From Halobacteria archaeon AArc-dxtr1 (lineage in GTDB: Archaea > Halobacteriota > Halobacteria > Halobacteriales > Natrialbaceae): 64,000 bases of DNA. Made by a program: the position numbers and the translations under genes. This document shows positions 41,892-46,225 of the stretch, in pieces. Position 1 is the stretch's first letter. Each line of letters starts with the position of its first letter. The DNA lies in NCBI GenBank assembly GCA_025517425.1, contig JAOPJY010000001.1:248001-312000 (forward strand), given 5' to 3'. The notes under the pieces are model-generated. The model had not been told where the DNA came from. It did no database searches and saw only the letters and a program-made list of their open reading frames with translations.

Positions 41892-44800
41892 ATGAGCGGC
41901 TCCGAGCTCTCCGCGGACGAACTGACGCTGCCGATCAAACGCACCGAGGGCGACACGCTCGAGGAGCGCATGACGGCCAACGCCTACCACAACATCCTCC
42001 CCGCCCGCTATCTCCGCAAGGACGCCGACGGCGAACTCGTCGAGACCCAAGAGGAGCTGTTCACTCGCATCGGCCAGAATATCGCACTCGCAGAAGTTCC
42101 CTACGAGGCCGCAAAGCGCGACGTCGAGATCACCGTCACGCCCGAGCAGTTAAAGCCCGGCCACCCCCGCCGAGACGAGCTCGCCGCGGAGGTCTTCGGT
42201 GCAGGAACGACTGCCGAAGACGACGTCGAGACCGCGCTCACCGAGCACAACGTCAACAAGTTCGCCTACGAGACCGTCGTCCCCGAGTTGCCCGCGGAGA
42301 TCCGCGAGCACGTCGAGGACGTCGCCGACACGTTCGTCGAGGGGATGGAGAGTCTCTCCTTTATGCCGAACTCGCCGACCCTGATGAACGCCGGCGACGA
42401 ACTCCAGCAGCTCTCGGCCTGTTTCGTCATGAGCCCCGACGACGACCTCTCGGACATCCACGAGACCGCCAAGAAGGCCGCGGAGGTCTTCCAGTCCGGC
42501 GGCGGCGTCGGCTACGGCTTCTGGCAGCTGCGCCCCTTCGGCGACTCCGTCGGCTCGACCGGCGGCATTGCGTCGGGCCCGATCACCTTCATGCGGACGT
42601 ACGACCAGCTCTGTGAGACCATCGCGCAGGGTGGCACGCGACGCGGTGCCCAGATGGGGATCATGCGCGTCTCCCACCCCGACGTCATCGAGTTCATCCA
42701 CGCGAAGAACAAGGACGTCTCCCTGGCTCACACGCTGCGACTCAACGACCCGGACGACTACACCTACACCTCGTTCTCGGAGGCCTTAGAAGAGGCCCGC
42801 GACCTCATCGACGAGGACGGCCGCGTCCCCAAACACCTCCGCAACGCCGTCGAGGGCCACCTCTCTAACTTCAATATCTCCGTCGGCGTCACCGACGACT
42901 TCATGGAGGCGCTCCAGAACGGCGAGGAGTACACGTTCACAAACCCGCGAACCGAAGAGCCCCACATCGCGACCGAAGAGACCAAAGAGATGTACGGCCG
43001 CTACGATCTCGGCGAGCACGTCGAGGTCGGCGAGCCGCTTTCGATCCCCGCCGATCTCGTCTGGGAGCGTATCGTCTCCGGCGCCCACGAGAACGGCGAA
43101 CCCGGCGTAATCTATCTCGAGCGCGTCAACAAGGAACACTCCTTCGACGTCGAGGCCCACCCCGACCACCGGATCCTCGCGACGAACCCATGCGGTGAAC
43201 AGCCCCTAGAGGAACACGAGGCCTGTAATCTCGGCCACATCAACCTCTCGACGGTCGCGGATCTCGACGCCCCGGACTGGCGCGTCTGGTCCGAGGAACA
43301 CGGCGACGAGTACGACTCCCAGGAGGCGGCCATCGAGGCGTTCCTCGAGGACGCGATCGACTACGACGAGTTCGACGAGCGCATCGAGTACGGCACGCGC
43401 TTCTTGGAGAACGTCGTCACGATGTCTGACTTCCCCGTCGAGGAGATCGAGCAGACGGTTCGTGACATGCGCAAGATCGGCCTTGGTATCATGGGGCTGG
43501 CCCAGCTGTACATCCAGCTCGGCATCAAGTACGGCAGCGACGAGGGTGACGAGGTCGCCCGCCAGCTGATGACTCACATCAACCACGGCGCGAAAGCCAA
43601 GAGTCACGAGCTTGCCGAAGAGCGCGGCTCGTTTAACGACTGGGATGAGTCGAAGTATGCGAACCCGACCGAGTACCGCGAGTGGTTCGAGCACCAGACC
43701 GGCGAGGACGCCAACGACTGGGAAGGCGGCTTCCCGATCCGGAACCACAACGTGACCACCATCGCGCCCACGGGCACGACCTCGATGGTCGGCAACACGA
43801 CCGGCGGCTGTGAGCCGATTTACAACGTCGCCTACTACAAGAACGTCACCGACGACGTGCAGGGCGACGAGATGCTGGTGGAGTTCGACGACTACTTCCT
43901 GCGCGTGCTCGAGGCCAACGACATCGACGTCGAGGCCGTCAAAGAGGAAGCTCAGGAGCAGATGGCGACCAACCAGTTCGACGGCGTCGAGGGACTCGAG
44001 ACCGTCCCGAACGCTATCGGCGAGCTGTTCGTCGTCACCTCCGACGTCTCGGCGAAACAGCACGCGGCGGTCCAGTGTGCCTGCCAGAAGGGCGTCGACT
44101 CGGCGATCTCGAAGACGGTTAACGCGCCTAACGACTCCTCGCTCGAGGACGCCAAGGATGTCTTCGAATGGGTCTACGAGAACGGCGGTAAGGGCGTTAC
44201 CTACTACCGCGACGGCACTCGTAGCAAGCAGGTGCTGACCACACGCGCAGACAACGCCGACTTCGCCGACGAAACCGAGGCCGCAGAGGCACTCGTCTCC
44301 CAGATCGACGAGATCTTCGGCGGGCTCGAAGCCTTCCTCGAGAGCGACGACGTCCAGGACAGCCTCGGGGACGATGCCGAACCGCTCGTCGGCGACGCTC
44401 CAGACCCCGTTCAGGTCGACTTCACCGAGAAGCGCGAACGACCCGACGCGCTTCAGGGCGTCAGCCAGCGCATCGACACCGGCTACGGGAAGGTCTACGT
44501 AACGATCAACGAAGATCCCGAAACCGGCCAGCCCTTCGAGCTGTTCGCGAACATCGGTCACTCCGGGGGCTTCACGAACTCCTTTACCGAGGCGCTGGCG
44601 AAGGTCATCTCGACCTCGCTGCGCTCGGGCGTCGACCCCGAGGAGATCGTCGACGAACTCTGTGGGACTCGAAGTCCCAAAGTCGCCTGGGACAAAGGCG
44701 AGCAGATCCAGTCCATTCCGGACGCCATCGGTACCGCGATGCGACGGTATCTCGACAACGAGATCGACAAGCCGTACCCGACCCAGCAGACCTTAGAGGA

Positions 44801-45011
44801 CGCCGCCGACGCCGACACGACCGTCGAGTTCGACGGGCCGGAGACCGACGGCGGGGCAGCCACCGAGGCCCCTGCTGGCGATGCCGACGACGCCGTCCAG
44901 GACCTCATCGATGCCGGTGAATCCCCCGAGTGTCCCGACTGCGGCTCGCTCTCGCTGTACTACTCGGAGGGTTGCAAAACGTGCAATAGCTGCGGATGGT
45001 CCGAATGCTGA
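41892..45011 (+). CDS. nrdJ: Adenosylcobalamin-dependent (class II) ribonucleotide reductase
   Basis: 1039 residues. An active-site Cys177 lies in QLSACFVMSP, the radical Cys434 in NPCGEQPL, and the barrel shows QSGGGVGYGFWQLRP, QGGTRRGAQMGIM and APTGTTSMVGNTTGGCEP. The last ~28 residues form a Cys-rich ribbon (CPDCGSLSLYYSEGCKTC...CGWSEC) that probably re-reduces the active site. It converts ribonucleotides to deoxyribonucleotides without oxygen. The length equals intein-free homologues. An interrupted endonuclease gene follows within 98 bp. Confidence 0.96.
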   Translation: MSGSELSADELTLPIKRTEGDTLEERMTANAYHNILPARYLRKDADGELVETQEELFTRIGQNIALAEVPYEAAKRDVEITVTPEQLKPGHPRRDELAAEVFGAGTTAEDDVETALTEHNVNKFAYETVVPELPAEIREHVEDVADTFVEGMESLSFMPNSPTLMNAGDELQQLSACFVMSPDDDLSDIHETAKKAAEVFQSGGGVGYGFWQLRPFGDSVGSTGGIASGPITFMRTYDQLCETIAQGGTRRGAQMGIMRVSHPDVIEFIHAKNKDVSLAHTLRLNDPDDYTYTSFSEALEEARDLIDEDGRVPKHLRNAVEGHLSNFNISVGVTDDFMEALQNGEEYTFTNPRTEEPHIATEETKEMYGRYDLGEHVEVGEPLSIPADLVWERIVSGAHENGEPGVIYLERVNKEHSFDVEAHPDHRILATNPCGEQPLEEHEACNLGHINLSTVADLDAPDWRVWSEEHGDEYDSQEAAIEAFLEDAIDYDEFDERIEYGTRFLENVVTMSDFPVEEIEQTVRDMRKIGLGIMGLAQLYIQLGIKYGSDEGDEVARQLMTHINHGAKAKSHELAEERGSFNDWDESKYANPTEYREWFEHQTGEDANDWEGGFPIRNHNVTTIAPTGTTSMVGNTTGGCEPIYNVAYYKNVTDDVQGDEMLVEFDDYFLRVLEANDIDVEAVKEEAQEQMATNQFDGVEGLETVPNAIGELFVVTSDVSAKQHAAVQCACQKGVDSAISKTVNAPNDSSLEDAKDVFEWVYENGGKGVTYYRDGTRSKQVLTTRADNADFADETEAAEALVSQIDEIFGGLEAFLESDDVQDSLGDDAEPLVGDAPDPVQVDFTEKRERPDALQGVSQRIDTGYGKVYVTINEDPETGQPFELFANIGHSGGFTNSFTEALAKVISTSLRSGVDPEEIVDELCGTRSPKVAWDKGEQIQSIPDAIGTAMRRYLDNEIDKPYPTQQTLEDAADADTTVEFDGPETDGGAATEAPAGDADDAVQDLIDAGESPECPDCGSLSLYYSEGCKTCNSCGWSEC

Positions 45012-45108
45012 CGCAGTAACGCGTTCGATACCGCTCAACTCTCGAAACAATCTTCCTATTTCGCTCTCCTGTTCGAGTTTTTACCCGAAGACGATCCCAC
45101 ACATTCGT

Positions 45109-45999
45109 ATGGTAACGGTAGACGAGTGCCCCGCTTGTGGGAGATCGGATTTTAAGAATGAGTACGGAATTGGTATCCATCTCGTTCGGTATTGTGACAA
45201 GTGTACTGAATCTCAGAAAGAGTTCGGCCGAGAGCTGATCTCCGGGGAGAACCATCCGATGTATGGGTACAAAATGTCCGAAGAGACGAAACGAAAAATC
45301 GGCGAGGCGTCGTCAGGGAGAAAAATGCCAGAAGAGGCAAAACAAAAAATTAGCGATTCTCTGAGTGGACACGAGGTGTCGGAAGCGACTTGAGAGAAAA
45401 TAAGTGAATCACTCCAGGGAGAACGGAATCCGTGGTATGGAGTTACCGGAGAAGACCATCCCAGGTACGGTGACTCATTCGAGCTAACTGAACAGAGCCG
45501 GAAACGACTGTCCCAATCACTCAAGGAGACCTATGCAGACGATCCGACCAAGCACTCGATGTATGGACGAACCGGAGAGGATCATCCGCTCTATGGCTAC
45601 ACCTGGAGTGATGAACAGCGGCAGAAATTGAGCGACGCGTTGCGGGGTACAGTTCCGGGAAAAACCAAACCACGCCAAGTCATAAAATCCAGACATGTCG
45701 TCAGAAATGGCTGGGAAGCCGCAATAGACCTAATTCTGCACGACTCACCGTTCGAATACTCGTACGAGGACGTTTCGTTCCAGTTGAGCGGTCAATCGTA
45801 TACGCCGGACTTCGTAGCCGCAGGTGTGGTAATTGAAGTGAAAGGAATGGTATGGTCCGGGGACGACGATAAAGCCAAGACATTCATGGAGTTGTATGAT
45901 CGCCCATACGTCGTCGTGGGTTCCGAGTTGCCATGCGACGAACACCTTCCGTGGGATGAGCGAGAACAGCTCCCTGGCGTCATCGAAGCACTTCGTTGA
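45109..45999 (+). pseudogene. NUMOD3/PD-(D/E)XK endonuclease gene interrupted by one in-frame TGA
   Basis: One reading frame of 296 codons plus stop, broken by a TGA at 45391-45393. The N-terminus has a zinc-binding CPACGR...YCDKC. Then come NUMOD3 repeats before and after the TGA (GENHPMYGYKMSEETKRKIGEAS; after it EKISESLQGERNPWYG, GEDHPRYGD, GEDHPLYGYTWSDEQRQKL), and finally a nuclease-like end with YTPDFVAAGVVIEVKG, a PD-(D/E)xK core. NUMOD3 is a DNA-binding module of homing endonucleases. CGA (Arg) to TGA would restore SEATREKISESL. It is A+T-richer than its neighbours and stands right after nrdJ, a common site of free-standing homing nucleases. Confidence 0.82.
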
Positions 46000-46090: not shown

Positions 46091-46225
46091 ATGACCGCTG
46101 ACAGGGATACTTCAGGTGACATTCCGACGTGTCCGTTCTGTGAGGCTCCCCTCTACAGGCGCCACTGCAAGTACGTCTGTCCCCAACACGGGGTCGTGAT
46201 CGACTGCAGCGATCCGTTTCTCTAA
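46091..46225 (+). CDS. Mini zinc-ribbon protein (44 aa)
   Basis: 44 codons from ATG 46091: MTADRDTSGDIPTCPFCEAP, then RRHCKYVCPQHG and the end CSDPFL. Cys/His groups CPFC, HC, CPQH and a late Cys make one or two zinc sites. It recalls a conserved haloarchaeal mini zinc-finger family (I believe the HVO_2523 type, from memory). The role is unknown. It lies alone between the endonuclease gene and a DUF5830 gene, on the same strand. Confidence 0.78.
   Translation: MTADRDTSGDIPTCPFCEAPLYRRHCKYVCPQHGVVIDCSDPFL

Follow-up and report, generated by a model that had tools for sequence, protein, structure and literature searches.

The window, which is the whole 64,000-nt stretch of DNA analyzed here, contains an nrdJ gene for a B12-dependent (class II) ribonucleotide reductase (41892..45011, + strand), identified from an ORF of 1039 aa with the Pfam domains Ribonuc_red_lgC (1.7e-130), TSCPD, and Ribonuc_red_lgN. 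This gene is the host and presumed target of the element described below, a broken endonuclease gene located on the same strand 97 nt downstream. The spacer between the two (45012..45108, +) contains a TATA-like sequence, TTTTTA (45078-45083), 31 nt upstream of the start codon of the endonuclease. Sequence comparison revealed this box 30-31 nt ahead of the start codon in all four copies of the gene; the fixed spacing suggests that the endonuclease gene has its own promoter and would be transcribed without a leader. The right-hand neighbor of the element is a small zinc-ribbon gene (46091..46225, +), which follows directly after nrdJ at most of the empty sites that we read.

When translated, positions 45109-45999 form a single frame of 296 codons plus the stop codon, and the sole in-frame TGA is codon 95 (45391..45393, +). 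The 5' part of the gene (45109..45390, +) encodes a zinc finger and the first NUMOD3 repeats; the 3' part (45394..45996, +) is open for 201 codons and encodes further NUMOD3 repeats and a nuclease domain. In Pfam, NUMOD3 matched five stretches of the frame (E 1.8e-25; score 89 bits, cut-off 20.4). A first-pass annotation of this DNA had described one long frame with NUMOD3 repeats, a PDF...EVKG core, and a single TGA, directly downstream of nrdJ, and translation and Pfam agree with this description, including the identity of the reductase. The annotation had also noted an N-terminal zinc site. This site (45127..45195, +) is real, with C-x2-C...H-x4-C common to all four copies in alignment A1; however, the fourth cysteine of the window copy is not conserved in the other copies.

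The nuclease domain (45682..45996, +) displays the motifs W-E, P-D, and E-x-K-G. Used alone as query against the PDB, the window copy had a weak match to T7 endonuclease I (1m0d, E 0.007). Profile A2, built from 14 haloarchaeal and viral nuclease homologues, matched the same structure with an E-value of 1.1e-7 and had no other convincing match. In the alignment of this profile to 1m0d, the catalytic order E / PD / E-x-K is shared with T7 endonuclease I; the E, D, E, and K are invariant across all 14 homologues, and we take the residues aligned to them to be E20, D55, E65, and K67 of T7 endonuclease I. The domain also matched phrog_29037 (8.7e-15) and phrog_945 (1e-7). The Pfam family Phage_endo_I (PF05367, T7 endonuclease I) scored 19-21 bits on the window copy and 17.5-25.7 bits over all sequences examined, under its gathering cut-off of 29.1, and with this sub-threshold score the nuclease is not a filed member of the family. 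An AlphaFold2 model of the domain (pLDDT 75.8, built from few sequences) had weak Foldseek matches (best E 0.02), mostly to PD-(D/E)XK nucleases; the matches include Bax1, PvuRts1I, AbaSI, R2 endonuclease, and T7 endonuclease I. The model lends weak support to the PD-(D/E)XK fold class and says nothing on the subtype. The profile and the motifs place the nuclease with T7 endonuclease I among the PD-(D/E)XK enzymes. The first-pass annotation had described NUMOD3 with a PD-(D/E)XK nuclease and had named Vsr/EDxHD and restriction-enzyme-like folds as ones to search for; NUMOD3 and a PD-(D/E)XK nuclease were recognized by profile, whereas the EDxHD identity was rejected because the motif reads E / PDF / EVKG. 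I-Ssp6803I, which is a compact, intron-encoded enzyme, was absent from the PDB matches of profile A2 down to E 1. Membership in its type was also rejected, as there is no visible sequence similarity and only the fold class is in common; to our knowledge, I-Ssp6803I contains neither NUMOD3 nor a zinc finger.

Among 391 genomes scanned across the class, G254, G104, and G302 each contain a close homologue (71-72% identical); they belong to three other genera of the window's family. All three genes are uninterrupted and located directly downstream of nrdJ on the same strand; the layout of a free-standing homing endonuclease beside an nrd gene, proposed in the first-pass annotation, thus recurs at the same place in three other genera. 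When all 125 genomes of the family were searched with a profile, no copy beyond these four came up; the fifth match (G344) is an RFC intein. The gene is present in 4 of the 123 family genomes that contain nrdJ. We read the region 3' of nrdJ in 60 non-carriers and found the endonuclease gene in none of them. Most of these empty sites consist of nrdJ, a short spacer (about 100-260 nt), and the zinc-ribbon gene; the wider gaps seen in some genomes contain mostly ordinary host genes on the opposite strand and no endonuclease of the window kind. Both the empty and the full-length versions of the site envisaged by the annotation therefore exist. As in free-standing homing endonucleases, the gene is optional, being present between two conserved neighbors in some genomes and missing there in relatives, and its product joins a nuclease domain to modular DNA-binding repeats (NUMOD3, five times).

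The carriers are scattered on an nrdJ protein tree built without the last 12 residues: four changes are needed, and a tree placing the carriers in a single clade was rejected (p-AU 3.8e-7). Spread between genomes, rather than descent only, may explain this scatter, but the four-taxon trees of endonuclease and nrdJ are not in significant conflict. No close relatives of the window protein were found in viral contigs, nor in named genomes searched with alignment A1. In G302 (locus L036), extra sequence about 1000-1400 nt 3' of nrdJ separates the endonuclease from the zinc-ribbon gene. This sequence has the look of an inverted repeat (TATAGTAGCCACTGA ... GTGGCCACTATAGA) and is perhaps a small mobile element.

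A new finding is that all four carriers have a recoded nrdJ end, 36 nt in length. In the window, these 12 codons (44976..45011, +), the presumed cleavage-resistant target and edge of the mobile unit, read AAA ACG TGC AAT AGC TGC GGA TGG TCC GAA TGC TGA. The four carriers share AAA ACN TGC AAT AGY TGY GGN TGG TCN GAA TGY TGA (CNSCGWSEC), whereas most non-carriers in a codon table of nrdJ ends from 64 genomes have AAG ACC TGC GAG TCC TGT GGC TGG AGC GAG TGC TRA (CESCGWSEC). The recoding is nearly silent, with E-to-N as the one protein change; in most comparisons, both serine codons swap TCN/AGY class, in opposite directions. We divided the final 480 codons of nrdJ into bins of 12 and compared identities in each. 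In the last bin, the identity is 0.894 among carriers and 0.694 between carriers and empty genomes, a difference of +0.200; in the remaining 39 bins this difference lies between -0.122 and +0.055. The sister species G302 (carrier) and G163 (empty) have 11 mismatches in the last 36 nt and 30 in the preceding 1008 nt (Poisson 2e-8). Downstream of the nrdJ stop codon the two are unrelated until homology resumes about 45 nt ahead of the zinc-ribbon gene.

The recoded motif was found in 7 of the 125 family genomes, namely the four carriers and three Natrinema non-carriers, and in no class genome outside the family. It is present in 4/4 carriers and 3/119 non-carriers (Fisher 3.9e-6, a value that ignores kinship; the carriers belong to four genera). 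The three exceptions, G400, G375, and G403 (loci L076, L079, and L092), come from one Natrinema clade and have the recoded end without the endonuclease gene; the link between gene and recoding, and any protection that it provides, is therefore not strict. Their recoded ends may have been left behind when the gene was lost, or may be natural variation. The same two serine codon changes, but with the E kept, occur in four further non-carriers. Among named genomes, the motif occurs only in Natrinema zhouii, a non-carrier; it was absent from viral contigs, and thus no viral donor was found. A displaced old nrdJ end, of the kind that integrases leave, was sought 3' of the endonuclease gene and not found. 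As this search found none, and the original spacer was replaced, the sequence does not reveal the exact position of the cut.

While the anatomy of the element is well supported, its homing activity is a proposal from sequence. The locus is likely to be a free-standing homing endonuclease, broken by a nonsense codon, that would move together with a substitute 3' end of nrdJ, which probably shields the carrier allele. The intact protein would bind a long DNA site through its zinc finger and NUMOD3 repeats, and the T7-endonuclease-I-like domain would cut the bound site. The target would most likely be at the 3' end of nrdJ, where a conserved stretch encodes the C-terminal cysteine motif CxSCGWSEC. 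An empty genome would be cut at this end, and repair from a carrier would copy in the recoded 36-nt end, the spacer with its promoter, and the endonuclease gene, so that the mobile unit would start 36 nt inside nrdJ. By altering the DNA and keeping the reductase protein nearly unchanged, the recoded end would probably protect the carrier from its own enzyme. The recoded block is about as long as the targets, of up to 30 bp, that homing enzymes of the NUMOD type contact (PMC3943268), which agrees with this reading. Free-standing enzymes of T4, as the relevant section of PMC2988022 describes them, cut hundreds to thousands of bases away from their own gene; the target could accordingly sit elsewhere in nrdJ. 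The rewritten end hints both at how the site was chosen and at how a host gene may escape cutting.

An alternative retains the homing endonuclease and regards the recoded end as co-converted donor DNA that was kept by chance; protection would then come from the insertion, which would split a recognition site that reaches across the stop codon into the spacer. Flanking DNA is commonly co-converted during homing, according to the account of the process in PMC2988022, and the three non-carriers with a recoded end would be natural targets under this alternative. However, the left edge is located at the same 36-nt point in four genera, whereas co-conversion tracts normally vary in length, and the switch of both serine codons between classes, mostly in opposite directions, also speaks against it. 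We consider chance co-conversion possible but doubtful.

The codon at the position of the window TGA is a sense codon in G254, G104, and G302; thus, no relative shares the TGA. A TGA shared by many intact relatives is what the first-pass annotation would have read as two real genes. TGA as a recoding signal was rejected on the same grounds, and because nrdJ and the endonuclease frame themselves end in TGA. Apart from this nonsense codon, the window copy shows no further lesion. Of the 200 columns that are invariant in the other three copies, it differs at 23; for the uninterrupted G104 copy, the corresponding count is 21 of 198. The inactivation is therefore either recent, as had been annotated, or an artefact. 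In the G302 copy, alignment A1 has PGF in place of PDF, which means that the catalytic aspartate is lost. Two of the four copies, those of the window and G302, thus look dead, and this fits the life cycle of homing endonucleases. If the TGA were a sequencing or assembly error, the window copy would be intact and active; its being the single difference of its kind, in a copy that has no second lesion and has diverged no more than the others, would agree with such an error. The independent damage to the catalytic Asp in G302 indicates instead that decay is normal for this element, and an error seems unlikely to us.

The endonuclease frame is A+T-rich, as annotated: its GC content is 51.1% (GC3 0.545) compared to 64.2% for the whole window (GC3 of nrdJ, 0.87), which places it at the 0.3 percentile among 891-nt windows. 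The genes of the three relatives are likewise A+T-rich (GC 44.8-48.9%). A+T richness is therefore a trait of the gene family and gives no date for the entry of the element. Between copies, pN is 0.09-0.18 and pS 0.76-0.89, with synonymous sites saturated in every pair. Low pN over saturated pS points to a protein long under selection, and the saturation, together with the A+T richness of all copies, to an old family; these data do not show the recent entry suggested in the first-pass annotation.

Strong conservation of the protein, and trees of endonuclease and nrdJ without clear conflict, would also suit an immobile host gene, for example for a resolvase or repair nuclease, inherited vertically from the family ancestor and lost in most lineages. 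We regard vertical descent as very improbable: its presence in 4/123 genomes, from four genera scattered on the nrdJ tree, would require very many losses, its A+T-rich base use differs from that of the hosts, the same nuclease occurs inside RFC inteins and beside viral genes, and the recoded nrdJ end is left unexplained. That each half of the locus encodes a working protein of its own, first a zinc-finger/NUMOD3 peptide of 94 aa and then, from ATG 45559 onward, a C-terminal nuclease of 146 aa, is hardly credible, for although both half frames are open, none of the three relatives has a split frame, and the inner ATG is well 3' of the stop and would leave off most NUMOD3 repeats.

The same nuclease was found in other settings. 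Among loci L007-L030, 21 of 24 (L007, L010-L017, and L019-L030) are RFC small-subunit genes with an intein. In these inteins, a zinc site is combined with a NUMOD3-like stretch, which in L013 scores slightly under the Pfam cut-off, and with a T7-endonuclease-I-like PD-(D/E)XK domain rather than a LAGLIDADG endonuclease. Both rfc-a and rfc-d appear in a survey of inteins in Halobacteria, whose entries for them do not name the endonuclease type (PMC4071816). In genomes G161 (L037, 4275-7987) and G381 (L038, 281-5191), which belong to two other families, an endonuclease of this kind separates the N-terminal from the C-terminal part of DNA polymerase B. The split point is the same in both genomes, and the reading frames overlap or almost abut. 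The unsplit polB of the window's genome reads KKRYAG-HITWKEGKDVDDID-ITGFEY, whereas the split genes read KKRYAG-LKSWIR-stop, followed by the endonuclease and then MNELPGTILRPPEVD-ITGFEY.

In the haloviruses HVTV-1 and HCTV-5, gp37 (L033, 3866-4591) and gp38 (L031, 4866-5591), respectively, are located directly 3' of thymidylate synthase; no such endonuclease follows the thymidylate synthase gene of HCTV-1. Like the window element, these proteins contain a zinc finger, NUMOD3, and the same nuclease (32% identity over 93%), but they are viral, adjoin a different host gene, and have fewer NUMOD3 repeats. The abundance of homing endonuclease genes in both viruses had been noted before (PMC3950731). 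GenBank entry KC117377 labels gp37 "replication factor C small subunit"; this label probably arises from the RFC intein. One endonuclease of the same nuclease type is encoded on a Natrinema thermotolerans plasmid.

Among known systems, F-CphI of cyanophage S-PM2 is also free-standing, also has a catalytic domain from a Holliday-junction resolvase lineage, and also occurs with a host gene made resistant by a change in the target (PMC6083498). It differs in its Endonuclease VII catalytic motif and its phage host gene, psbA; its resistance is due to an intron, whereas that of the window element would probably be due to silent recoding, and its activity was measured (PMC6083498), whereas the window element is known here from sequence. 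MobE and the Seg/Mob enzymes of T4-like phages are likewise free-standing, some adjoin nrd genes, and they cut the neighboring gene in alleles that lack them; unlike the window element, they are HNH or GIY-YIG enzymes of phage genomes with targets hundreds of bases away, and the sections of PMC2988022 on these enzymes describe no recoded gene end. The same sections link mobE to the split nrdA of phage Aeh1 and seg43 to the split gene 43 of phage 25, arrangements that resemble the endonuclease between the polB halves of L037 and L038. I-Ssp6803I (cited in PMC3943268) shares the PD-(D/E)XK fold class. T7 endonuclease I (PDB 1m0d, 1fzr, 2pfj, 3cae) is the closest solved sequence relative, with E, PD, and E-x-K aligned, but is a structure-specific junction resolvase without NUMOD3 or a zinc finger.

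Homing endonucleases have been sorted into six families plus an endonuclease-VII type (PMC6083498). We tentatively suggest, and hold it to be slightly short of an even chance, that the T7-endonuclease-I-like nuclease is a separate catalytic lineage of homing enzymes in haloarchaea and their viruses, free-standing, in inteins, and in split genes, and that the free-standing nrdJ form carries, in the recoded host-gene end, an immunity of its own. Beside the endonuclease-VII type, another resolvase-like catalytic domain appears to have been put to use in homing, this time in archaeal chromosomes and not in phages. In the literature collection that we searched, no paper joined NUMOD3 with haloarchaea, and none joined homing endonuclease, T7 endonuclease I, and free-standing. 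The recoded nrdJ end provides a ready-made pair of carrier and empty alleles for asking how a free-standing homing endonuclease spares its own genome, and the polB and RFC cases present one nuclease type moving among free-standing, gene-splitting, and intein settings.

In loci L008 and L009, the same nuclease domain follows arrays of other DNA-binding repeats (helix-turn-helix-like in L008), and no NUMOD3 was seen in either. These arrays indicate that the nuclease domain swaps its DNA-binding parts.
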